Shown: piece after piece, positions 50,822 to 62,680 of the stretch
Layout: every line of letters begins with the position of its first letter
Numbering within the stretch: the first letter of the stretch is position 1
NCBI RefSeq assembly: GCF_900188225.1
Contig: NZ_FZOC01000003.1
Span: forward strand, 372,001 to 436,000
Direction of reading: 5' to 3'
Origin: Humidesulfovibrio mexicanus
GTDB lineage: Bacteria; Desulfobacterota; Desulfovibrionia; Desulfovibrionales; Desulfovibrionaceae
DNA: 64,000 nt
Program-made: the position numbers and the translations under genes
The notes under the pieces: model-generated
The model's database searches: none
What the model was told of the DNA's origin: nothing
What the model saw: the letters and a program-made list of their open reading frames with translations, nothing else

Positions 50822-53080
50822 ATGCTGTTTTTGAAAGGTTCGACTGGTTCTGTGCACAGCGCAAGGTTGTCTTCATTTCCTCGCGCTGCCCTGCGGTATG
50901 CCGCAGCGCTTTCTCTTGGTCTCGCCCTTCTGCTGCCTCAGCATGGCGTTGCCGCTTCCGTTGATTATAGTTCAGATTTTCATGATGTGATAGGCAACGG
51001 GTCTGCTCTTGACTCCCTTTTTAGTATTGGGGGATCAAATAATCTTGCGTCACATGCCGAGAACATCTATGCATCCGGCAACACCGTGAACATACTTGGC
51101 GGTGCTGTCGTCGATTACGGCATATACGGCGGATATCATGACGGAACAACGACCAGCGCCGACCTTGCGGCCAGCAATAATAGTGTGACGATCGCCTCTG
51201 GCTTTGTGGGGCACGGGACTCTGGATATCTTTGGCGGATATGCGAAAACCGCGAATGCGTTTTCCATGACCGCCTCCGATAACACCGTGACCATCAACGG
51301 CGGAACTGCGCGTTACGTATACGGCGGCTACGCTTACATCAACACCTTTGGCGCCATCACCGCAACGGCCTCCGGCAATAGCGTCACCTTCAACGCAGGT
51401 ACACTTGGAAGCATTTATGGTGGCTCGGCATACTCTCACACAGGCGGGACAACACACGCTGTTGCCAACGGCAATACCGTTGCTCTCAGCGGTGGCACAG
51501 TTTCGTCTGTTTACGGCGGGAAAGCCTATGCACATGACGGCAATGCTGAGGCCAAAAACAATAGTGTGACAATCAGCGGGGGTACTGTCCTCTGGTCTGT
51601 TTACGGCGGGTATGCCTATGCAGGGAACGACCCAGCACAGGCAACAGGCAATACCGTGACCATCAGCGGTTCGCCGAATTTGACGGCCGCAAGCCTCTAC
51701 GGGGGAGGAACGGGGTTCGGTAATGCTGAGATTTTCACCGGCAATACGCTGAATGTGAAGACCTCTGGCCTGACGGCGGCTCAGCTAAAGAATTTTCAGT
51801 ATCTCAACTTCTACCTGCCCACCACCTTGGCGGCGGGCGATACGGTGCTGACCGTGACGGGCACGGCGGATTTGACAGGCAGCGCAGGCCGGTCCTCCAC
51901 CGTCAATGTGGGCATCGACGGTGGCTCTTCGTCCCTGCTGGCAGGGGACACCATCACGCTCATCAACGCCGGAACTCTGGTCACGAACAGCGGGCTGAAC
52001 ACCAGCGCGAGCGGCACGGGAATGCAGGGCGTGACCCTGCTCTACAACTTCGACATCTCAACCGTCGGCAACACGCTGTTGGCCACGGTGGCAGCCAACG
52101 CGGGGCTTACGGTCAACGAACAGACCAAGGCGCTTTCGGAAGGGTTTGTTTCCGGCCTGGGCATGGTGACGCAAGGCGCGGACGTGGCCGCCGGGCAGGG
52201 CATGGATTCCGCCGTTGCCGCGGCCAAGGCCGGGGCTGCGGCCGGCGGCGGCGCGCCTGTCGGGTTCGGCGCGGTTTCCGGCGGTTCCGTGCGGTACAAT
52301 ACCGGCTCGCATGTGAATGTGAACAGCGCCTCCCTGATGGCCGGTCTGGCCTGGGGAGCCAAGAATCCGCTCGGCCGCCTGACCTTCGGGCCGTTTGTCG
52401 AATACGGCTACGGCTCGTACAGCACCTATAATTCGTTCAGCAACGCCGCTTCGGTCAAAGGAGACGGCACCACCAGCTACTATGGCGGCGGTGTTCTTGG
52501 CCGCCTGGATTTGCCCGACAGCGGCCCCGGCCACGCCTATGTTGAAGCCTCGACCCGGGCTGGCGGCCTGCAGAACGACTACAAGTCATCCGACCTGCGC
52601 GACGCCTCCGGGCGCAGCGCGGAATACGATTCGTCGTCCATGTATTTGGGTTTTCATTTGGGCACCGGCTATGTCTGGAACATCATGGAGAATGCGTCCC
52701 TTGACCTCTACGGCAAATACTTCTGGACGCGGCAGCTGGGCGACCGCGTCACGCTGTCTACCGGCGACCCCATCGACTTTAAGGATGTGGACTCCAACCG
52801 GCTGCGCATCGGCTCGCGCTTCAGCTACACGATGCATGAGGGGCTCGCCCCCTACGTCGGCGCGGCCTATGAGCATGAGTTTGACGGCAAGGCCCGCGCC
52901 ACCACAAACGGGTATAGCATGAAGGCCCCGTCCATGGGCGGCGATACCGGCGTCTGTGAGCTTGGTCTTGTGTACGCGCCGCTGGAATCGTTGCCGTTTT
53001 CTTTCGATCTTGGCGTGCAGGGCTATGTGGGCAAACGCGAGGGCGTGACCGGCAGCTTGCAGGCCAAGTACGAATTCTAG
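50822..53080 (+). CDS. Autotransporter (type V secretion)
   Basis: A 752-residue protein. The signal (ALRYAAALSLGLALLLPQHGVAAS) is preceded by a ~20-residue polar extension. Residues ~75-300 are a passenger of repeated beta-helix turns with the motif NNSVTISGGTV...VYGGYAY, recurring about every 35-40 residues. Residues ~480-752 are the 12-strand autotransporter barrel ending GSLQAKYEF with C-terminal Phe. Start fixed by GGGAG eight bases upstream. The passenger DNA is richer in A/T and uses codons unlike its neighbours, while the barrel part is GC-rich; this points to a passenger acquired or diverging separately. The passenger probably stays attached as a surface adhesin. Confidence 0.88.
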   Translation: MLFLKGSTGSVHSARLSSFPRAALRYAAALSLGLALLLPQHGVAASVDYSSDFHDVIGNGSALDSLFSIGGSNNLASHAENIYASGNTVNILGGAVVDYGIYGGYHDGTTTSADLAASNNSVTIASGFVGHGTLDIFGGYAKTANAFSMTASDNTVTINGGTARYVYGGYAYINTFGAITATASGNSVTFNAGTLGSIYGGSAYSHTGGTTHAVANGNTVALSGGTVSSVYGGKAYAHDGNAEAKNNSVTISGGTVLWSVYGGYAYAGNDPAQATGNTVTISGSPNLTAASLYGGGTGFGNAEIFTGNTLNVKTSGLTAAQLKNFQYLNFYLPTTLAAGDTVLTVTGTADLTGSAGRSSTVNVGIDGGSSSLLAGDTITLINAGTLVTNSGLNTSASGTGMQGVTLLYNFDISTVGNTLLATVAANAGLTVNEQTKALSEGFVSGLGMVTQGADVAAGQGMDSAVAAAKAGAAAGGGAPVGFGAVSGGSVRYNTGSHVNVNSASLMAGLAWGAKNPLGRLTFGPFVEYGYGSYSTYNSFSNAASVKGDGTTSYYGGGVLGRLDLPDSGPGHAYVEASTRAGGLQNDYKSSDLRDASGRSAEYDSSSMYLGFHLGTGYVWNIMENASLDLYGKYFWTRQLGDRVTLSTGDPIDFKDVDSNRLRIGSRFSYTMHEGLAPYVGAAYEHEFDGKARATTNGYSMKAPSMGGDTGVCELGLVYAPLESLPFSFDLGVQGYVGKREGVTGSLQAKYEF

Positions 53081-53231: not shown

Positions 53232-54011
53232 CTAGCCCGTTTCGCCGCGGCCCAAAAGCCGCAAGAGCCCGTCCAGAATGGTCCAGGGGTGCGGCGCGCA
53301 GCCCGGCACCAAAAGATCCACCGGAAGCATGGCCCCGCAGCCGTCGTGGGCCTCCGCATGGCCCGCGAACGGTCCGCCGGAAATGGCGCAGGACCCGACC
53401 GCGATGGCCACGCGCGGCTCGGGCGTGGCGGCCCAGGTCTTCTCCAGGCCCAGGCGCATGTTCTCGGTCACCGGCCCGGTGACCAGCACCCCGTCGGCGT
53501 GGCGCGGCGAGGCCACGAACTGGATGCCGAAGCGCCCCAGGTCGAAGACCAGGGTGTTCAAGACGTTGGTGTCCAGTTCGCAGGCGTTGCAGCCGCCCGC
53601 GCTCACCTGCCGCAGCTTGAGGGAGCGCTTGAACAGGGCCAGGCGTTCCGGCGGCAGGGCCTCTGCGTGCACAAACGGCCCGCCGCGCAGGATGAGCGCC
53701 TCGCGCCTGCTTGCGGACATGCGGAAGTCGCCCGTGAAGCGTATGGCCCCCTGCGGGCAGGCGGCCGCGCAGTCGGTGCAGAACAGGCAGCGGCCCAGGT
53801 CCAGGGACAGCCCGCCGCTCACGGGGTCGTCCAGGCGGATGGCCCCGGCCGGGCAGGCGGCCGCGCAGGCTCCGGGCGTGGGGCAGCCCGTGCAGGCGGC
53901 GGGGTCTATCTCCGGCCGTCCGGGATAGCGGTCCGGCAGAACGGGCTGCTTGTGCGGGTAGGGCAGGGTGCGGTGGCCTTGGCGCAGGCGGGCGATGACG
54001 TGTTGGATCAT
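53232..54011 (-). CDS. Fused HyfH-HyfI-like ferredoxin/small subunit
   Basis: A 259-residue protein, last gene of the operon. The N-terminal ~95 residues are a two-cluster ferredoxin (CTGCPTPGACAAAC with an enlarged first loop, and CLFCTDCAAAC), as in HyfH/NuoI. The C-terminal ~130 residues are a NuoB/HyfI-type small subunit keeping the cluster cysteines: AGGCNACELD, AVGSCAISGG and VPGCAPHPW. In related complexes these are separate genes. The chain of Fe-S clusters should pass electrons toward the large subunit encoded 10 nt upstream. GGGAGG precedes the ATG. Confidence 0.85.
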   Translation of the reverse strand: MIQHVIARLRQGHRTLPYPHKQPVLPDRYPGRPEIDPAACTGCPTPGACAAACPAGAIRLDDPVSGGLSLDLGRCLFCTDCAAACPQGAIRFTGDFRMSASRREALILRGGPFVHAEALPPERLALFKRSLKLRQVSAGGCNACELDTNVLNTLVFDLGRFGIQFVASPRHADGVLVTGPVTENMRLGLEKTWAATPEPRVAIAVGSCAISGGPFAGHAEAHDGCGAMLPVDLLVPGCAPHPWTILDGLLRLLGRGETG

Positions 54012-54021
54012 GTCCGCCTCC

Positions 54022-55512
54022 CTAAAGGTCGTGTCCGCAGTAGGACAGGCTGAAGCTTTTGTTGCATATGGGGAAGTCCGAAATCTGCTGGTTGCGCAGG
54101 GCCATGGACAGCCCGGCCCAGTTGTGGAAGCTGGGATCCACCACCTTGTAGGCGCAGAAGCGCCCGGTCGCGTCGGTCAGGGCCACGTGGCAGATCTCGC
54201 CCCGCCAGCCCTCCACCAGGGACACGGCCAGGCTTTCCGGGGCCAGGGCGCCCATGGGCGTGGCGAAGCCGCAACGCGACGGGCATTGGGGCAGGTGGGT
54301 CAGGCGCTCGCGCAGGAACTTGTCCGAGTGCAGAAGCTCAATGTGCCGCACAAAGGCGCGCCCGGCCACGTCGCCGGTCTGGGCCACGGCCACGGGAATA
54401 TGGGAGAAGGCGTAGGCCCCGACGGGATAGTCCTGGCGCACGTCGATCTCCACGTCGCAGGCCCGCGCGGCCACGCCCACAAGCCCCAGGGCCAGGGCGT
54501 CCACGCGGGAGACCGGCCCGGTGCGCTCAAGGCGCGACACCACCGAAGGCGTGCTCCACAGAAGCTCCACCGCCTCCACGCACTGCGGGAACACCTCGGA
54601 GAGGTGCGCCAGCACCGCCTCGGCCCTGGCGCGGTCCAGGTCGAAGCGGGTGCCGCCGGGGGTGAGCAGCCCGCGCCCGAAGCGGCTGCCGCACAGGGCG
54701 GCCGTCATGTTCAGAAAATCGCCGCGGATGCGTCCCAAGAACGACGAGGTTGGCAGAAAGCCCAGGTCCATGGCCAGCGCGCCCAGGTCGCCCGCGTGGT
54801 TGGCCAGGCGCTCCAGCTCAAGGGCGATGGCCCGGAACACCTGCGCCCCGGCGGGAACCGGGCAACCGGCCAGGGCCTCCAGGGCCTGGCAGGCCGCCGT
54901 GGCGTGGCCGATGGTCGTGTCGCCGCAGAGGGTCTGCATGTGCTGCAGGAACAGGGGGCCGGGCCCTCCGACAAGCGCGCGCTCCACGCCCCGGTGCTGG
55001 TAGCCTAGGGATATCTCCAGGTTCAGCACGTCCTCGCCGTGGCACAAGAAGCGGAAGTGCCCGGGCTCGATGATGCCCGCGTGCACCGGGCCCACGGCCA
55101 CCTCGTGCCCGCCCTCGCCCTGCGCCTCCATGAAGCGCGCCAGGCCGATCTCCGGACCGTTGGCCGAAGCGTTGTCCGGGGCGCGCTGGGGAAAGCGCAC
55201 CGGCTTCAGCCAGGGGTGTCCCAGGGGGGTGACGCCCCAGGTCTCCCATATCTCGCGCTCGAAAAGATGGGCCTGCGGGCAGTCGGGCGTCAGCGCCGGA
55301 TAGGCCGACCCGGCAGGGGCGGAAATGACATGCAGCACACCCAGGCGGTCTTCGGCCAGCACGGCCAGAAGCCGAAGCTCGTCGGCCACGGGAGCGCAGA
55401 ACAGCGCCGCCAGCCGGGCCTCGTGCAGCACCGCCTCCAGCACCTCGGTGCAGAACTCCTCGGCCGGAAGGCGCGGCACCGCGCGCAGGGGAATGGCCTG
55501 GGCGTTGCGCAT
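54022..55512 (-). CDS. NuoCD/HyfG-like large subunit lacking NiFe ligands
   Basis: A 496-residue protein. Residues 1-110 are a NuoC-like domain; the rest is a [NiFe]-hydrogenase-large-subunit/NuoD fold (GYQHRGVERALVGG, GDTTIGHATAACQALEALAG, DFLNMTAALCGSRFGRG). In true group-4 hydrogenases two CxxC motifs hold the metal. Here the first reads C196-G-D-T199 and the second D-P-S461-F-H-N464, so three of four ligands are gone. It therefore cannot build a normal NiFe site; this matches Ehr-type complexes and complex I. Its start overlaps nothing but lies 3 nt from the previous stop. The reaction partner is unknown. Confidence 0.85.
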   Translation of the reverse strand: MRNAQAIPLRAVPRLPAEEFCTEVLEAVLHEARLAALFCAPVADELRLLAVLAEDRLGVLHVISAPAGSAYPALTPDCPQAHLFEREIWETWGVTPLGHPWLKPVRFPQRAPDNASANGPEIGLARFMEAQGEGGHEVAVGPVHAGIIEPGHFRFLCHGEDVLNLEISLGYQHRGVERALVGGPGPLFLQHMQTLCGDTTIGHATAACQALEALAGCPVPAGAQVFRAIALELERLANHAGDLGALAMDLGFLPTSSFLGRIRGDFLNMTAALCGSRFGRGLLTPGGTRFDLDRARAEAVLAHLSEVFPQCVEAVELLWSTPSVVSRLERTGPVSRVDALALGLVGVAARACDVEIDVRQDYPVGAYAFSHIPVAVAQTGDVAGRAFVRHIELLHSDKFLRERLTHLPQCPSRCGFATPMGALAPESLAVSLVEGWRGEICHVALTDATGRFCAYKVVDPSFHNWAGLSMALRNQQISDFPICNKSFSLSYCGHDL

Positions 55513-55514
55513 GG

Positions 55515-56966
55515 CTAGAACCCTCCCGTTATGCGCGCGGACGCGGCCAGCATGTCGGCCAGGGGCTCCGGGTGCCACAGGCCCAGCAGCAAAACGCAGA
55601 GCATGAGCACAAGCGGCGGCCAGCAGGCGCTCATGCGCTCGGCCTGGCGCGGTTGCGCCCCGTGCCCCTGCGCCATGCGGAAGGCGGCGGTGGTGATGCC
55701 GATGAACGCCATGGCGATGAGCAGCAGGTAAGCCCCGGCCAACAGGGGGCGCGGCCCGGCAAGCGCCGCGCGCAGGATGGCCAGCTCGCTCACGAAGGTT
55801 CCGAAGGGCGGCATTCCGGTGAGGGCCAGCACTCCCGCCACCCACAGGGGGCCGGACCAGGGCAGGGCGCGCACCGCGCCGCGCACCCCGGAGACCTCCT
55901 TGGTCAGGTACAGGGCCAGGACGTTGCCCGCCAGCAGGAACATGGCGCCCTTGGCCGCGCCGTGGGCCAGCATGTGCAGCAGGCTGCCGTGCATTCCCGC
56001 CCCGCCGATGCCCGCGCCAAAGGCCAGAATGCCCATGTGCTCCACGCTGGAATACGCCAGCAGGCGCTTGTAGTCCGTCTGCCGGAGCAGGAACACAGCG
56101 GCCCAGGCCATGCTCGCCAGGCCCAGGGCCACCAGCAGGTCGCCCGCGAACTGGGCCTGCCCGGCGGCGGAAAGCACCTGCCGCACGCGCAGAATGGCCA
56201 AGAACGACACGTTCAGCAGGCAGGTGCTCATGAGGGCAACAAGCGAGGGCGACTCGCTGTACACGTCGGGCAGCCAGGTGTGCATGGGGGCCAGGCCCAT
56301 CTTGGTGCCGTAGCCCACCAGCAGGAACACGAAGGCCGCCTTGAGCAGCATGGGGTCCAGGCTCGGGCCCGCGGCCATGAGCGCGGAAAGGTGCAGCGAC
56401 ACCTCGCCGCCCCCGGCCAGGGCCAGCATGTACGTGCCGAACAGGGCCAGGGCGATGCCCACGGAGCAGAGCAGCAGGTACTTCCAGGTGGCCTCAAGCG
56501 AGCGGTGATGGCGGTGGAAGTAGATGAGCGGGGCCGAGGCCAGGGTGGTGGCCTCCACGCCGACCCACAGAAGCCCCAGGTTGGCCGCCATGCACACAAA
56601 GCTCATGGCGCCCAGGAACAGCAGCAGGCAGCCGGTGAAGCGCGCTTCCGGCGAGTTGGAGAACAGCCCGCCCTCCACCATGTCCGGCCGCTGGCCGCGC
56701 GTCTCGCGGTCCAGGTAGCCCACGGCGTACAGGGCTGCGGCGAAGAACAGCACGCTTGTGGCCAGCAGGAAAATCCTGCCCGGCGCGTCCAGCAGCAGCG
56801 CGCCGTCGAACATGGGCCGCGAGCGCCCGGCAAAGGTGGCCAGGGTGAGGGCCAGGTGCGCCACGGCGGCCGCCACAAGCATGATGCGCCGGGGCCTGTT
56901 CCGGGGAATCACGAAGGCGGCCAGCCCGGCCAGCCCCGGCACGACTATGGTCAGCGCGTCCAGCAT
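55515..56966 (-). CDS. hyfF: HyfF/NuoN-like antiporter-type subunit
   Basis: A 483-residue membrane protein with about 13-14 helices. Typical blocks: GLLWVGVEATTLASAPLIYFHRHHRSLEATWKYLLLCSVGIALALFGTYML, TKMGLAPMHTWLPDVYSESPSLVALMS, DYKRLLAYSSVEHMGILAFG, and HMLAHGAAKGAMFLLAGNVL. These carry the Lys and Glu residues of the proton/ion channel found in Mrp, complex I and hydrogenase-4 subunits. The spacing to the next gene upstream is 6 nt. It should pump H+ or Na+. Confidence 0.9.
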   Translation of the reverse strand: MLDALTIVVPGLAGLAAFVIPRNRPRRIMLVAAAVAHLALTLATFAGRSRPMFDGALLLDAPGRIFLLATSVLFFAAALYAVGYLDRETRGQRPDMVEGGLFSNSPEARFTGCLLLFLGAMSFVCMAANLGLLWVGVEATTLASAPLIYFHRHHRSLEATWKYLLLCSVGIALALFGTYMLALAGGGEVSLHLSALMAAGPSLDPMLLKAAFVFLLVGYGTKMGLAPMHTWLPDVYSESPSLVALMSTCLLNVSFLAILRVRQVLSAAGQAQFAGDLLVALGLASMAWAAVFLLRQTDYKRLLAYSSVEHMGILAFGAGIGGAGMHGSLLHMLAHGAAKGAMFLLAGNVLALYLTKEVSGVRGAVRALPWSGPLWVAGVLALTGMPPFGTFVSELAILRAALAGPRPLLAGAYLLLIAMAFIGITTAAFRMAQGHGAQPRQAERMSACWPPLVLMLCVLLLGLWHPEPLADMLAASARITGGF

Positions 56967-56972
56967 CGTCCG

Positions 56973-57611
56973 CTACTCCTTGAGCGACGCCAGTCTGTCG
57001 GCGTCGATGTGGTCGAATTCGCGGTTGATGCGGAAGATGGCGATGCCCATGACGAACACCGCCACGAACACGTCCAGAAGAATGCCCATCTCCACCAGCA
57101 GTTGGGCCTTGCGCAGGGCCACGGCCCCGAAGGCGAAGATGCCGTTTTCCAGCACCAGGTAGGCCACCACCTGGCTTACGGCCTTGCGCCGGGCCACGAT
57201 GCCGAAAAGCCCCACCAGGATGGTGAAGAAGGCCACCGGGGTAAGCAGCTGCGGCAGGCCCACGGGCATGGGCATCCGGCCGCCCAGCCACACCGAGGCG
57301 GCCAGGGCCGCCACCCCGAAGAGCAGCGAGGCTGAGTAGCCCACGTAGGGCTCCACCTCCGCGCGCACGTGCGCGCTCTCAAGGGAGCGGAACAGCAGCC
57401 AGGGGAACACGCCCCCCTTGAGCACGGCCGTGGCTGCGGAGACGGCAAGCGAGGAGAGCGCCAGCTCCCCGTGGCCCAGCAGCGGCAGAAAGGCCAGCCC
57501 CACGCCCTGGAAGGCCACCATGCGGATGCACAGGCCGATGCGGCTGGTGCCCAGAAGCACCAGATTCGTGAGCACCAGGCCCACCAGGATCAGTTCCACC
57601 AGCGAGTGCAT
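56973..57611 (-). CDS. hyfE: HyfE/NuoK-like subunit
   Basis: A 212-residue membrane protein with six or so helices; VELILVGLVLTNLVLLGTSRIGLCIRMVAFQGVGLAFLPLL and VAYLVLENGIFAFGAVALRKAQLLVEMGILLDVFVAVFVMGIAIFRINREFDHID match the HyfE family. Conserved Glu in the VLENG block is in place. GAGGT lies eight bases before the ATG. It forms the ion-path middle of the membrane arm. Confidence 0.88.
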   Translation of the reverse strand: MHSLVELILVGLVLTNLVLLGTSRIGLCIRMVAFQGVGLAFLPLLGHGELALSSLAVSAATAVLKGGVFPWLLFRSLESAHVRAEVEPYVGYSASLLFGVAALAASVWLGGRMPMPVGLPQLLTPVAFFTILVGLFGIVARRKAVSQVVAYLVLENGIFAFGAVALRKAQLLVEMGILLDVFVAVFVMGIAIFRINREFDHIDADRLASLKE

Positions 57612-57618
57612 TCGTGCA

Positions 57619-58545
57619 TCACCTCAAAAGCAGTATCAGCGCCAGCCCGGAGAGCGCCGTGGCGCCCACCAGCAGGCGCGGCACCATGAGCAGCCGCAGC
57701 CGCGCCATGCTCGACTCCACCACGCCCACCACCAGCGCCAGGGCGAGGATTGCGCCGGTCCCCGCCGCCACGGCGGCCAGGGCCTCCCCGCGCACCGGGA
57801 CGAGCACCCCGGTCAACACCGCGGCCAGGGTCCACAGCTTCACGCCCTGGCCGTACAGAATGAAGGCGAAGTCCGGCCCGGAATGGTCCAGCACCATGAC
57901 CTCGTGGATCATGGTCAGCTCCAGGTGGGTGTTGGGGTCGTCCACCGGGATGCGGCAGGTCTCGGCCAGCAGCACCAGGAACAGCGCCGAGGCCGTGAGC
58001 GCCAGCACCGGGGCGGCGGCCTCCCAGCGCGCGGCGTCGATGCGGGCGAGCATCTCCGCCAGGGAGTAGGCGCCGGTGGCCTGGGCCAGGGCGGCCAGGC
58101 CCAGCACCTGGGCCAGTTCCGCGGGCACGGCGAACTGCATCTCGCGGCTGGCGCCCATGCCCTCGAAGCTGGAGCCCGTGTCCAGGGCGGCGGCGGCGGT
58201 GGCGAAGCGCGACAGGGACAGAAGCCCGGCGAAGAGGAACAGGTCGCCCTCGAAGGAGATGAGCCCCGGCTGTCCGCCCAGGGGGGCCAGGGCCAGGGCG
58301 CACAGGGCGCAGGCCAGACCCAGGGTCGGGCCCAGGGCGAAGGCCCAGCTGGTGCTGCGGCTTATCACCGCGCCCTTGCGCAGCAGCTTGGCCAGGTCGA
58401 AGTAGCTCTGCAGCAGGGGCTGGCCCGTGCGCCCGGCGAACTTGGCCTTCACGCGGTTGATGATCCCGAAGAGCAGCGGGCACAACAACAGGCCAAGGAC
58501 CATGCGCGGCAAGGCGTCCAGGTGGAGCGCGGTCTGGGCGGGCAT
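57619..58545 (-). CDS. hyfC: HyfC/NuoH-like subunit
   Basis: A 308-residue membrane protein of the NuoH/HyfC family: FGIINRVKAKFAGRTGQPLLQSYFDLAKLLRKG (quinone/arm-junction loop), VPAELAQVLGLAALAQATG, CRIPVDDPNTHLELTMIHEVMVLDHSGPDFAFILYGQGVKLW. It joins the Fe-S/large-subunit arm to the antiporter subunits. The start overlaps the previous stop by one base (TGATG), so it is translationally coupled to hyfB. Confidence 0.9.
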   Translation of the reverse strand: MPAQTALHLDALPRMVLGLLLCPLLFGIINRVKAKFAGRTGQPLLQSYFDLAKLLRKGAVISRSTSWAFALGPTLGLACALCALALAPLGGQPGLISFEGDLFLFAGLLSLSRFATAAAALDTGSSFEGMGASREMQFAVPAELAQVLGLAALAQATGAYSLAEMLARIDAARWEAAAPVLALTASALFLVLLAETCRIPVDDPNTHLELTMIHEVMVLDHSGPDFAFILYGQGVKLWTLAAVLTGVLVPVRGEALAAVAAGTGAILALALVVGVVESSMARLRLLMVPRLLVGATALSGLALILLLR

Positions 58546-60527
58546 CAGGAAAGCCCCCATGCGAGCAGCGCCACAAGCGTGGCGGCGATGTAGAGCACGT
58601 ACACGTGCACCTGCCCCTGCTGGAGCCGGTGCAGGGCCTTCAACCGGTCGTCCAGATAGCCGAAGAGCGCCAGAAAGCCCGTGAGGATGCGGTCTTGCGC
58701 CTCGGCAAAGTAGCCCGCGCGCGCGGGGAAAAGCCCCCAGGGCCGCGTGGCCTGGCCGAAGGAGCCGGTGAGCGCCCGGAACATGTCCGCCAGGGGCTGG
58801 GCGAAGGACGAATAGGTGTACTGGATGCGCGCGGTGGGCGCGATGTACCCGCAGTCCCAGGTGGGGCCGTGGCGCAGGTCGCGGCCGCGCAAAAGTCCCC
58901 GGCGCAGCAGCAGGATGCCGCCCAGCAGCGCCAGCAGCAGGGTGAAGGCCATGCTTGCGCTCAAAAGGCCCTCCACAAGGCTTGCGCCCTGTTCCGGCGC
59001 GCCGGGCAGATGCGGGGCCAGGGCGCGCAGGGCGGTTTCCAGCAGCAGGGGCGCGCCCAGGCCGAGGAACAGGCCGAATGTGGCCAGGGCCGCCATGGGC
59101 AGGCGCATGGCAACGGGGGATTCGTGGGCCGCTGCCGCCGTTTGGCTGCGGGGTTCGCCCAGGAACACCACGCCAAAGGCCCCCACGAAGACCGCCGCGG
59201 CCAGCCCGGCGCACAGCACCAGCACGGAGAGCACCGCCAGGCTGGGGATGTCCAGGCTGGGAGTGGGGAGCAAGAGGCCCTTCACGGCGGCCAGGCCAAG
59301 GGTCAGCTCCGAGGCGAAGCCGCCCAGGGGCGGCAGTCCGCAGATGCCCAGCGCCCCCACCAGAAAGGCCGCGCCCGTGGCCGGCATCCGCCGCATGACG
59401 CCGCCCAGGCGGTCCATGCGGGGCTCGCCCGTGCCGTGCAGCACGCTGCCCGCGCAGAAAAAGAGCAGGGATTTGAATACCCCGTGGTTCACCACATGGA
59501 GGAGCGCGGCGGAAAAGCCCAGGGCGGCGATAAGCGGAGCGTCGCAGGCGCGGCCCAGCGCCCCGAGCCCAAGGCCCAGGAGCATCAGCCCGGCGTTCTC
59601 CATGCTGGACCAGGCCAGCAGGCGCTTGAGCTCCGCCTGGCCCAGGGCCCCGCACACGCCCAGCACCGCCGTGGCCCCGCCCAGGGCGATGAGGGTCCAG
59701 CCCCACCAGGGCTCCGGGGGCAAGGCCAGCAGCACGCGCAGGATGCCGTACACGCCGGTCTTGATCATCACGCCGGAGAGCACGGCGGACACATGGCTCG
59801 GCGCGGCGGGGTGCGCCTCGGGCAGCCATACGCCAAGCGGGGCCAGGCCCGCCTTGGAGCCGAAGCCGACGAGGGCCAGCAGAAAGGCCAGCCCGGCCGC
59901 GACGCCCGCGCCCGGCAGGGCCGTCAATTCCGCGCCGGGGCCGCTGGCAAGGCCGGGGGTCGGCGGCCAGGCCGCGCCCGGCAGCAGGCACAGGGCCAGC
60001 AGGAAGGCCGCGCCCAGGTGCGAGGCGATGAGGTAGATGCGTCCGGCACGGCGCACCTGGGCCTCGGCGTCCTCCATGCACACCAGGAAATAGGACGAGA
60101 GCGCCATGCCCTCCCAGAACAGCAGCAGGAGCAGCGGATCGCGCGCGGTGAACACCCCGGCGATGCACGCGGCGAGGATGTTGTAGAAGAACCAGGGCGG
60201 CCCGATGCGCTTGCGGCCCTCCAGATTGGCCAGGTAGCCCCGGCCGTACACCGCGCCCAGGGCGACGAGGACCAGCGCCGGGACCAGGAACATGGCGGAG
60301 ATTCCGTCAATGGCGAGCGAGCCCAGGCCCCAGGGAGGCGGCCAGGCCAGGCGGAGCTCCCAGTCCTGCGGGGCGACCAGGGCCTGCGCGGCGGGGACAA
60401 GGCCCAACAGGCAGCCCAGCACGGCGCTGCCCGCGCCCACGGCGTTGGCGGCGCGGAAGGAGCGCGGCAGCAGTGCGGCCAGCGCGCCAAGCAGGAAGGT
60501 CAGCAGGCAGGCGGCGAAGAGGGTCAT
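58545..60527 (-). CDS. hyfB: HyfB/NuoL-like antiporter-type subunit
   Basis: A 660-residue membrane protein with about 16-17 helices. Blocks: FFYNILAACIAGVFTARDPLLLLLFWEGMALSSYFLVCMEDAEAQVRRAGRIYLIASHLG, GSKAGLAPLGVWLPEAHPAAPSHVSAVLSGVMIKTGVYGILR, ELKRLLAWSSMENAGLMLLGLG and VVNHGVFKSLLFFCAGSVLHGTG. Key Glu/Lys/His residues of the NuoL-type channel are present. The C-terminal part (IQYTYSSFAQPLADMFRAL...GYLDDRLKALHRLQQGQVHVYVLYIAATLVALL) is the HyfB-specific lateral extension. Its start overlaps the regulator stop (ATGA). Confidence 0.9.
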   Translation of the reverse strand: MTLFAACLLTFLLGALAALLPRSFRAANAVGAGSAVLGCLLGLVPAAQALVAPQDWELRLAWPPPWGLGSLAIDGISAMFLVPALVLVALGAVYGRGYLANLEGRKRIGPPWFFYNILAACIAGVFTARDPLLLLLFWEGMALSSYFLVCMEDAEAQVRRAGRIYLIASHLGAAFLLALCLLPGAAWPPTPGLASGPGAELTALPGAGVAAGLAFLLALVGFGSKAGLAPLGVWLPEAHPAAPSHVSAVLSGVMIKTGVYGILRVLLALPPEPWWGWTLIALGGATAVLGVCGALGQAELKRLLAWSSMENAGLMLLGLGLGALGRACDAPLIAALGFSAALLHVVNHGVFKSLLFFCAGSVLHGTGEPRMDRLGGVMRRMPATGAAFLVGALGICGLPPLGGFASELTLGLAAVKGLLLPTPSLDIPSLAVLSVLVLCAGLAAAVFVGAFGVVFLGEPRSQTAAAAHESPVAMRLPMAALATFGLFLGLGAPLLLETALRALAPHLPGAPEQGASLVEGLLSASMAFTLLLALLGGILLLRRGLLRGRDLRHGPTWDCGYIAPTARIQYTYSSFAQPLADMFRALTGSFGQATRPWGLFPARAGYFAEAQDRILTGFLALFGYLDDRLKALHRLQQGQVHVYVLYIAATLVALLAWGLS

Positions 60528-61249
60528 TGGCGTCTCCCCCGGCGGGCGGCGGCGCTGTCGTGCGCGTGTTCCGCGGCGGCCGCGGCGGTGAGCAGGGCGG
60601 CCTCGGACGCGCGGGAAAGCACGGCCTGCCGGAAATCGGCGTCGCGCAGGGCCGCGGCCAGAAGGGCGAGCAGCGTCAGGTGCGCGCGCACCGTGGGCGA
60701 GGCCAGCACGAACACGGCCTCGATGGGCGCGTTGTCCGGGGTGGGCACGGCGGAAAGCGGCAGGGGCCGGGCCGGATAGACCAGCACGATGCGCGGGGTT
60801 TCGCCCAGGATGAGCGGGGCGCGCACGTGCGGGGCCAGCACGCCGCCGCCAACGGCCGTGATGCCCGTGGCCTCGCGGGCCAGCAGCATGGCAAGGACCA
60901 GTTCGCGCTGGTGCTCGGGCGCATCGGGGATCATGTGCCCCACCACCGGGCAGAGCAGTTCCGGCAGGGTGTTGGCGCAGATGCCCCGCATCACCCCACC
61001 GGCGCGCATGGCCCCGGCAAGGGCCGAGACCGTTTCGCGGGCCTGGCCATCGGCTTCGGGCTCCAGTTCGCGGGCCAGGGCCGTGGGGCCCATGCCGTGG
61101 TGCAGGGCCCACTCCAGCAGTTCCGCGCGGTTGAAGTGGTACAGCCCGCCCAGGCGCACGGTGGGCAGGCCCGCGTGGGCGATCCAGCGCAGCACCGTCT
61201 TTTCCGTGCAATCCAGGGAAGCCGCGGCCTCCCGCAGGGTGAGCCTCAT
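60524..61249 (-). CDS. HTH (MerR/excisionase-like) plus PTS EIIA-like regulator
   Basis: A 241-residue protein. Residues 1-50 are an excisionase/MerR-like winged HTH (LTLREAAASLDCTEKTVLRWIAHAGLPTVRLGGLYHFNRAELLEW). Residues ~85-225 read as a PTS type-II EIIA domain (GICANTLPELL, VLAMLLAREATGITAVGGGVLAPHVRAPLILGETPRIVLVYPARPLPL, IEAVFVLASPTVRAHLTLLALLAAALRD); APH carries the phosphorylatable His. The ATG at 61249 has GAGGA upstream. It is translationally coupled to hyfB. Two palindromes upstream (61273, 61353) are candidate binding sites, so it may be autoregulatory. How phosphorylation would link sugar or nitrogen PTS signals to this complex is unknown. Confidence 0.75.
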   Translation of the reverse strand: MRLTLREAAASLDCTEKTVLRWIAHAGLPTVRLGGLYHFNRAELLEWALHHGMGPTALARELEPEADGQARETVSALAGAMRAGGVMRGICANTLPELLCPVVGHMIPDAPEHQRELVLAMLLAREATGITAVGGGVLAPHVRAPLILGETPRIVLVYPARPLPLSAVPTPDNAPIEAVFVLASPTVRAHLTLLALLAAALRDADFRQAVLSRASEAALLTAAAAAEHAHDSAAARRGRRQ

Positions 61250-61272
61250 GCCGCATCCTCGTCGTCCGCTTG

Positions 61273-61286
61273 TGACCAAGCGGTCA
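61273..61286. promoter_or_regulatory. Palindrome TGACC-AAGC-GGTCA (site 1)
   Basis: Perfect 5-bp arms with a 4-nt spacer, 24-37 bases upstream of the regulator ATG. It is also part of the longer match TGACC.AGCGGTCAAAT shared with site 2. Confidence 0.55.
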
Positions 61287-61352
61287 AATCGTGGCCGAAA
61301 GGCTATGGCGCAGAAGCACGCCTCGCCACGGAGAACGGCTGCGCCACCAGCA

Positions 61353-61366
61353 TGACCGAGCGGTCA
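61353..61366. promoter_or_regulatory. Palindrome TGACC-GAGC-GGTCA (site 2)
   Basis: Same arms as site 1, with the center exactly 80 bp away, and the same downstream AAAT. A paired operator for a dimeric regulator, possibly looping, is the natural reading. Confidence 0.55.
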
Positions 61367-61414
61367 AATGCTGGGCGTCACCTATTTCCGGCCACTGGTT
61401 GCGAAAACCGACAC

Positions 61415-61443
61415 ACAAAATGCTTTTGCGTGGCGTTTGTCAA
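61415..61443 (-). promoter_or_regulatory. Promoter of the Hyf-type operon
   Basis: On the minus strand TTGACA (61443-61438), a 17-bp spacer and TTTTGT (61420-61415). The -35 is perfect and the -10 weak. A start near 61408 would place both palindromes in the leader (about +42 and +122), fitting a roadblock or activator role. The region 61250-61461 contains these elements and no gene. Confidence 0.5.
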
Positions 61444-61461
61444 CCAGGAAAATGCGGGGGG

Positions 61462-62196
61462 TCAGGGTTCTCGGCAGTAGTCCATGGCCCGCGCATCCTT
61501 CAGGCGTTGGCATTGCCCCAGGGCGCAGGCCCGTCCATAGTCCTCGCACATGCCACGCACATCGCCCATTTGCGAGCGTGCCACGCCCCGGTTCGCGTAG
61601 GCCGTGGCCTGCCCGGCGTCCAGGGCGATGGCGCGGGTGAAGTCCGCCTCGGCTTCCTGGTGTCGGCCCTGTTCGTCCCGCGCCACGCCCCGGTTGATCC
61701 AGGCCACGGGGTCGTCCGGGGCAAGCTGGATGGCGCGGGTGAAGCTGGCCTCTGCGGCGCGGGGCTGGTCCAGAAGGAAGAAGGCGTCGCCTTGCGCCAG
61801 CAGGGCGGGCGCGTGGCGTGGGTCGAGCATGAGCGCGGTCCGGTAGTCCTCCAGGGCGCGCTCCATGTGCCCCAGCAGGGCGAGGCTCAGGCCACGCTCC
61901 ACAAAGGGTTGGGGCTGGCGGGGGGTGCGCAGGATGAGCCGGTTGGCCTCGGCCACGGCGTCTTCGGGCCTTCCGGCCTGGCGCAGGGCGCGCACGGCTT
62001 CCAGGTCGGCAGCTGCAGGGGCGCTGCGCAGGGCCGGGGCGGCGTCGAGTTGGCCCTGCCCGGAGGGCGGCGCAGGGGCCTGCGCGCAGCCCGCCAGCAG
62101 CGCCGCCAGCAGCGCCGCCAGCAGTCTGGCCAAAACAAGGCGTGCGCAGGCGCGTGCGGCCTTGGGGCCATGGGGCAGAGCGGGACGCGGGGCCAT
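61462..62196 (-). CDS. TPR lipoprotein
   Basis: A 244-residue lipoprotein. LVLARLLAALLAALLAGC has a lipobox; the ATG at 62196 with CAGGAGGA upstream is chosen over more upstream starts that add a polar extension. The mature part is five TPR-type helix pairs (ALRQAGRPEDAVAEANRLIL, VERGLSLALLGHMERALEDYRTALMLDP, ALLAQGDAFFLLDQPRAAEASFTRAIQLAP, AWINRGVARDEQGRHQEAEADFTRAIALD, AYANRGVARSQMGDVRGMCEDYGRACALG). It resembles NlpI-type scaffolds on the outer membrane. Function by partner, unknown. Confidence 0.8.
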   Translation of the reverse strand: MAPRPALPHGPKAARACARLVLARLLAALLAALLAGCAQAPAPPSGQGQLDAAPALRSAPAAADLEAVRALRQAGRPEDAVAEANRLILRTPRQPQPFVERGLSLALLGHMERALEDYRTALMLDPRHAPALLAQGDAFFLLDQPRAAEASFTRAIQLAPDDPVAWINRGVARDEQGRHQEAEADFTRAIALDAGQATAYANRGVARSQMGDVRGMCEDYGRACALGQCQRLKDARAMDYCREP

Positions 62197-62320
62197 ATGG
62201 TCCTCCTGCCCGCGCGGACGGGTCCGGACCGCTGGTCGGGCGCGGTACGCCCGGGGGGGTTGACGGCGGCGGTGAAAACGCGTCATGCACGGCTGTTCTC
62301 CCACGCTAGCGAGGTTTCCC

Positions 62321-62680
62321 ATGTCCCGCAATACAATAGTGACCGTTCTCGTGTTCGCCCTCACCTACGTGGGGAGTTTTTATTTTCGCATCCATGTGGT
62401 GGACACCCCGGTGGGTGTGGATGGGGGAGGCGTCTTGTTTGGGGCCGCTCGCCAGGCCATGCTCTGGGGGCAGCTTTCCGGGGCCTGGGGAGTTGGCAGC
62501 CTCGTCGCCGGCCTTGCGGCGCTGTTCTTCGGGGGGCTTGGACCTGTGCTGGCCTGGAGCGTTTTGACCGCCATGGCCCTGTGCAACTACAATGTCGATC
62601 TTGGGGCCATCGGCTTTGTGCTGGGCTTTTTGCGCCTTGTCCGCTTCCAGCGTCCGGCGCGGGAGCGGTCGGCGGTCTAG
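62321..62680 (+). CDS. Small membrane protein, unrecognised
   Basis: A 119-residue protein with three hydrophobic helices: TIVTVLVFALTYVGSFYF at the start, GVGSLVAGLAALFFGGLGPVLAWSVLTAMALCNYNVD in the middle, and GAIGFVLGFLRLV near the end. Small polar loops lie between (RIHVVDTPVGVDGGG). GAGGT precedes the ATG. No motif is recognised. Its stop shares CTAG with the stop of the convergent gene. Confidence 0.55.
   Translation: MSRNTIVTVLVFALTYVGSFYFRIHVVDTPVGVDGGGVLFGAARQAMLWGQLSGAWGVGSLVAGLAALFFGGLGPVLAWSVLTAMALCNYNVDLGAIGFVLGFLRLVRFQRPARERSAV

Follow-up and report, generated by a model that had tools for sequence, protein, structure and literature searches.

HTH-EIIA, encoded by the first gene of an Ehr (energy-converting hydrogenase-related) cluster, belongs to a gene family whose association with Ehr operons is conserved. 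The two palindromes upstream of this gene in the window (the whole stretch of DNA analyzed, 64,000 nucleotides) appear to be operators of an mqnD-linked TetR repressor, not of HTH-EIIA itself. We assign this joint model, with HTH-EIIA as partner of an Ehr-type complex and TetR as predicted owner of the palindromes, a probability of slightly under 60%. The data behind it are gene content, conservation, linkage, and site distribution; all binding, phosphorylation, and regulation described below are inferred from them.

The cluster, located at the end of the window, consists of seven minus-strand genes that run from 61249 down to 53232. The HTH-EIIA gene occupies 60524 to 61249 including the stop codon (coding 60527-61249), starts at the ATG at 61249, and encodes 241 amino acids. 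It is followed by genes for a HyfB-like antiporter subunit (58545 to 60527; Proton_antipo_M), a HyfC/NuoH-like subunit (57619 to 58563, start approximate; NADHdh), a HyfE-like subunit (56973 to 57611), a HyfF-like antiporter subunit (55515 to 56966), a HyfG/NuoD-like large subunit of the Ehr type without the [NiFe] cysteine pairs (54022 to 55512), and a ferredoxin (HyfH-like) fused to a NuoB/HyfI-like small subunit (53232 to 54011). These assignments come from Pfam and, except for HTH-EIIA and the large subunit, also from NCBIfam; alignments were used for the large subunit as well. The HTH-EIIA stop codon overlaps the hyfB start codon, which bears out the coupling by ATGA described in the initial annotation, whose range of 60524-61369 covers the HTH-EIIA gene plus both palindromes. 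Its statement that the regulator heads an energy-conserving complex holds in that HTH-EIIA is the first gene of the cluster, but what it called hyfB is an Ehr complex gene and not a hydrogenase 4 gene. Upstream, on the same strand, lies a gene for a TPR-repeat protein (61462 to 62364; Pfam) that is also present in close orthologues. On the other side, a large plus-strand gene (50822-53080) faces the Ehr operon; by eye, it is autotransporter-like with repeats in its N-terminal half.

Ehr complexes are described in PMC6349859 as group 4 hydrogenase relatives that lack the residues holding Ni and Fe and that have antiporter-like subunits. According to Pfam and NCBIfam, the subunit set in the window is that of a group 4 hydrogenase or complex I-like enzyme with antiporter-like subunits. 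The best alignment of the large subunit was to HycE of formate hydrogenlyase (7z0s), in which the CGIC ligand pair aligns with CGDT in the window protein and with AGD[TAS] in its relatives. In 10/10 sequences, an invariant CNKSFxLSYCGxDL takes the place of the C-terminal CxxC. Scores for the NCBIfam hydrogenase 4 subunits stayed below the cutoffs (for HyfB, 518 versus 667 bits). We rejected a hydrogenase 4 or formate hydrogenlyase reading on the basis of these scores and the missing [NiFe] cysteine ligands; judged by its sequence, the complex in the window is an Ehr complex, and a complex of this type probably pumps protons. It resembles known Ehr complexes in its HyfB/HyfF antiporter-like subunits and in its NuoD-like large subunit without Ni/Fe ligands, and differs in that the operon begins with an HTH-EIIA gene. 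Ehr complexes are widespread, and we found no regulator of theirs in the open literature searched; a search by term of the one open-access Ehr paper that we consulted (PMC6349859) found no occurrence of "regulator".

A Pfam scan of HTH-EIIA returned exactly two domains, HTH_17 at residues 3-48 (PF12728; 1.2e-8, 35.5 bits versus a gathering score of 27) and PTS_EIIA_2 at residues 117-220 (PF00359; 2.4e-10, 41 bits versus a gathering score of 27), with no PRD and no sigma-54 domain. The predicted phospho-acceptor, His141, lies within GGGVLAPH, is invariant across a 14-row alignment, and falls opposite the active-site region when aligned to PtsN. By simple pattern matching, 48 of the 50 proteins in the tree set carry the phospho-acceptor motif. 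Adjacent genes for EI and HPr, the latter with LGLHARPA, are present in the genome, as well as one more EIIA of the same type, and the EI/HPr relay may phosphorylate HTH-EIIA. The PRD/EIIA transcription regulators CelR, LevR, and MtlR are likewise PTS-phosphorylated proteins in which an EIIA domain is joined to a DNA-binding domain. HTH-EIIA differs from them in having neither a PRD nor a sigma-54 domain, and its presumed target is a respiratory complex rather than a sugar operon.

Linkage to Ehr genes extends well beyond the window. Full-length HTH-EIIA matches at E ≤ 1e-59 numbered 41 in 395 genomes of the phylum, and 36 of them have an Ehr large-subunit gene no more than 15 kb away on the same contig (counts tallied from printed tables). 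Three of the remaining five have an adjoining hyfB at a contig end. A wide search of genome contigs with the protein, a method that depends on short conserved peptides, returned only one relative; the others came from the search of genomes. Ehr genes adjoin HTH-EIIA in 12/13 loci that we read, and the 13th stops at a contig edge. The position within the operon varies, from the head in the clade of the window to a place after or before a hyfB copy: in other congeners, HTH-EIIA is flanked by the small-subunit gene and a copy of hyfB, whereas a Planctomycetota MAG and members of another family have it adjoining a hyfB copy, often between two. In the reverse direction, HTH-EIIA is nearby for 41 of 94 Ehr large-subunit matches, and many Ehr operons have no HTH-EIIA, including two that we read from one genus (g34); HTH-EIIA is therefore not an obligatory partner. 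In that genus, a nucleotide-sugar epimerase-like gene stands before hyfB instead.

None of thirteen further HTH-EIIA matches (1e-53 to 1e-45) has an Ehr large subunit nearby. In 9/9 loci read from this set, a ClC channel gene lies directly downstream, and in a maximum-likelihood tree a single branch, supported at 100/100, separates the ClC set from the Ehr set. The ClC channels in these nine genomes of the phylum carry CBS domains and are often followed by a conserved gene without a Pfam match. With the sister clade tied to ClC and the main clade tied to antiporter-like subunits, what the two have in common is a membrane protein that translocates ions. This shared factor is also what could be expected if HTH-EIIA worked chiefly by touching the membrane complex and kept its HTH for autoregulation only. 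PtsN controls K+ transport in this manner, acting on TrkA and KdpD of Escherichia coli by direct contact (PMC13104625), and the HTH-EIIA gene is often inside the operon instead of at its head. PtsN, the EIIA of PTS-Ntr, is similar in its type 2 EIIA domain with a GxGxxxPH phospho-acceptor and in the theme of ion-transporter control; HTH-EIIA differs by its N-terminal HTH_17 fusion and by the location of its gene in the operon of the presumed target. Both clades, however, retain the HTH, an argument that the protein binds DNA, and we consider an action mainly through protein contact unlikely, though by no means negligible. Some direct effect on the membrane complex, favored by the ClC branch, is a serious alternative. 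The open literature searched held no paper linking HTH-EIIA with Ehr or ClC. The initial annotation had proposed a phosphorylation-controlled regulator that senses PTS status and controls the complex, with the paired palindromes as operators. The conserved His141, the EI and HPr genes, and the strong conserved link to the complex speak for the first part of that model, whereas the assignment of the paired palindromes to HTH-EIIA is not supported. A PTS-linked regulatory role for HTH-EIIA, devoted to membrane proteins that translocate ions, is credible.

The palindromes themselves are as first described: two exact copies of TGACC-N4-GGTCA with identical arms, centers 80 bp apart, upstream of HTH-EIIA. 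Palindrome 1 (TGACCAAGCGGTCA) is located at 61273 to 61286, 23 bp before the HTH-EIIA ATG, and palindrome 2 (TGACCGAGCGGTCA) at 61353 to 61366; both are probable TetR sites. They share TGACCRAGCGGTCAAAT (17 bp, 1 mismatch). When the 212-bp intergenic region was shuffled with its dinucleotides preserved, two same-arm palindromes arose in only 1 of 5,000 trials, and no direct repeat matched the 17-bp one in length in 300; the pair is beyond chance in this region. Elsewhere in the window, 5-N4-5 palindromes with the same arms form two other pairs within 150 bp, which makes pairing alone a weaker sign than location. The suggested DNA looping between the two sites finds no backing in their spacing, since 80 bp corresponds to 7.6 turns at 10.5 bp per turn and places the palindromes out of helical phase.

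The proposed search of the genome for further sites yielded one more exact copy. Across 3.52 Mb there are three exact matches to the palindrome, all in promoter regions: the two upstream of HTH-EIIA and a third located 50 bp before a TetR-family gene (PF00440) on another contig. This tetR gene is divergent from a menaquinone-biosynthesis gene (PF02621, VitK2_biosynth) that has no NCBIfam match and that we call mqnD-like from our reading of its sequence. Among orthologues of this TetR (42 to 100% identity, from 40 related genomes), 17/17 carry an exact TGACC-N4-GGTCA upstream, in most cases as AATGACCACCYGGTCATT, and 17/17 have the divergent mqnD-like gene. At two of these loci (L126 and L127), the operator copies are in tandem, 22 bp apart. 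The arrangement resembles that of TetR repressors with local operators, having a palindrome beside the regulator gene and a divergent metabolic gene in all orthologues tested, and differs in the two extra copies before an unrelated operon on another contig. We infer, if thinly, a regulon of two promoters for the mqnD-linked TetR. The sites in the window match the full consensus AATGACCACCYGGTCATT only in the TGACC/GGTCA arms: their spacer is RAGC versus ACCY at the tetR gene, and the outer bases of AATGACC/GGTCATT are not kept. The affinity could therefore be low. The open literature searched included no paper on the TetR motif.

A genus-wide scan found 1 to 8 sites per genome, compared to 0 to 5 for a reversed control pattern. 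The extra sites that we read include five loci at which the site, mostly TTGACC-N4-GGTCAA, stands right before a second TetR gene. Standing before both families of TetR genes, the palindrome represents a type of TetR operator in this genus. The sites of the second family lie within ~50 bp of the start codon (L152 2691-2721, L153 2970, L155 2944, L157 2990, and L160 2050), and at L152 the palindromes are paired 17 bp apart. The window sites might accordingly belong to this second family and not to the mqnD-linked TetR: exact sites are present at 5/5 of its loci in the genus, and the minus strand of both window sites reads ATTTGACC-GCTY-GGTCA, in which one 6-bp arm is TTGACC, a better fit to one outer arm than the mqnD-linked consensus gives. 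Every second-family orthologue that we read has an exact site before its own gene, but this genome has no fourth exact site, so that the second tetR gene is either missing here or its site has drifted, and we did not find the gene beside 20 near-match sites of this genome. This assignment has a small chance of being right, and the mqnD-linked TetR remains our preferred owner of the palindromes.

Comparison of the leader with those of relatives suggests how the sites arrived. In four congeneric orthologues (72 to 78% identity), the TPR gene, the TTGACAAA element, the start region, and the HTH are all preserved, but the leader is ~90 bp shorter and has no palindrome. By alignment, the additional, lineage-specific stretch spans 61270 to 61372 (edges approximate) and holds both palindromes. 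We rejected a REP/MITE or other repeat origin for it, as there is no second copy in the genome. Within TTGACAAA, a -35-like TTGACA (61438 to 61443, minus strand) is kept in all five close orthologues. Allowing ≤1 mismatch and 350 bp upstream, the palindrome occurs in 0 of 41 distinct Ehr-linked loci, including the four close orthologues; the 41 are what remained of 46 entries after five duplicates were collapsed, and one of them has only 72 bp of upstream sequence.

The initial annotation read the palindromes as HTH-EIIA operators and named their absence upstream of orthologous operons as the outcome that would refute this; the sites were indeed absent, with 0/41 loci carrying them, and TetR fits the motif better. 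An HTH-EIIA dimer that binds both palindromes, autoregulates the operon, and forms a DNA loop under the control of phosphorylation would explain why the pair lies, beyond chance, directly before the gene of a protein with an HTH and a predicted phosphorylatable EIIA domain. The HTH is nevertheless well conserved in proteins whose loci lack the sites, the tetR genes account well for the motif, and the 80-bp spacing is out of phase. In addition, BldC, the best-studied stand-alone MerR-like HTH protein, recognizes head-to-tail direct repeats instead of palindromes (PMC5859096). BldC and the excisionase-type HTH_17 proteins share with HTH-EIIA the N-terminal DNA-binding domain (PF12728, TIGR01764); BldC is an HTH only, whereas HTH-EIIA carries an EIIA domain as well. 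We regard binding of both palindromes by HTH-EIIA as improbable. Most likely, the pair is a recently acquired TetR target, with binding predicted from the motif.

The extra leader could also act as RNA, its palindrome stem-loops controlling translation or attenuation of the first gene. The stems are CCAGCA..TGACCGCTCGGTCA..TGCTGG and CCGCTTGGTCACAAGCGG, of which the second lies just before the Shine-Dalgarno sequence and close to the start codon, and the leader folds more stably than its shuffles (z = -2.15, with 4/200 as stable). That z-score is weak, however, and the leader is lineage-specific and has no match to a known RNA family in Rfam, while the same motif is promoter DNA at the tetR genes. 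A role as RNA is thus very improbable.

Under the joint model, HPr and EI would phosphorylate the EIIA domain at His141, and HTH-EIIA would thereby report PEP/pyruvate status. Phosphorylation might switch either DNA binding by the HTH at the operon promoter or the contact of HTH-EIIA with the membrane complex. The mqnD-linked TetR is predicted to bind its own promoter just behind a conserved TTGACA element, and its other targets would be the tetR gene itself and probably the mqnD-like one. The palindromes were apparently acquired by this species inside the ~90-bp extra leader, which would have brought the Ehr operon under the TetR repressor; bound ~70 and ~150 bp downstream of the TTGACA of the Ehr leader, TetR could be a roadblock to transcription, and HTH-EIIA would be a second, operon-encoded input beside it. 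A wider proposal, that HTH-EIIA proteins are dedicated PTS-phosphorylation sensors coupling PEP status to ion-translocating machines in an Ehr branch and a ClC branch, with the Ehr operon here captured by a quinone-linked TetR, seems possible to us but on balance doubtful. The open literature searched contained no experiments on the HTH-EIIA, Ehr, or TetR proteins of this study. A conserved, co-encoded EIIA regulator offers a handle on the signal that Ehr complexes answer, and its ClC counterpart hints that the rule may be general. If true, the TetR link would tie the Ehr complex to menaquinone supply and hint that the complex works with quinones.

Our scan of the Ehr leader found no convincing -10 and no canonical sigma-70 promoter, only the conserved TTGACAAA element. 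This element is flanked by an imperfect inverted repeat, CTGGTTG...CAACCAG (61395-61447), with related half-sites in some orthologues, and this repeat could be the real target of HTH-EIIA.
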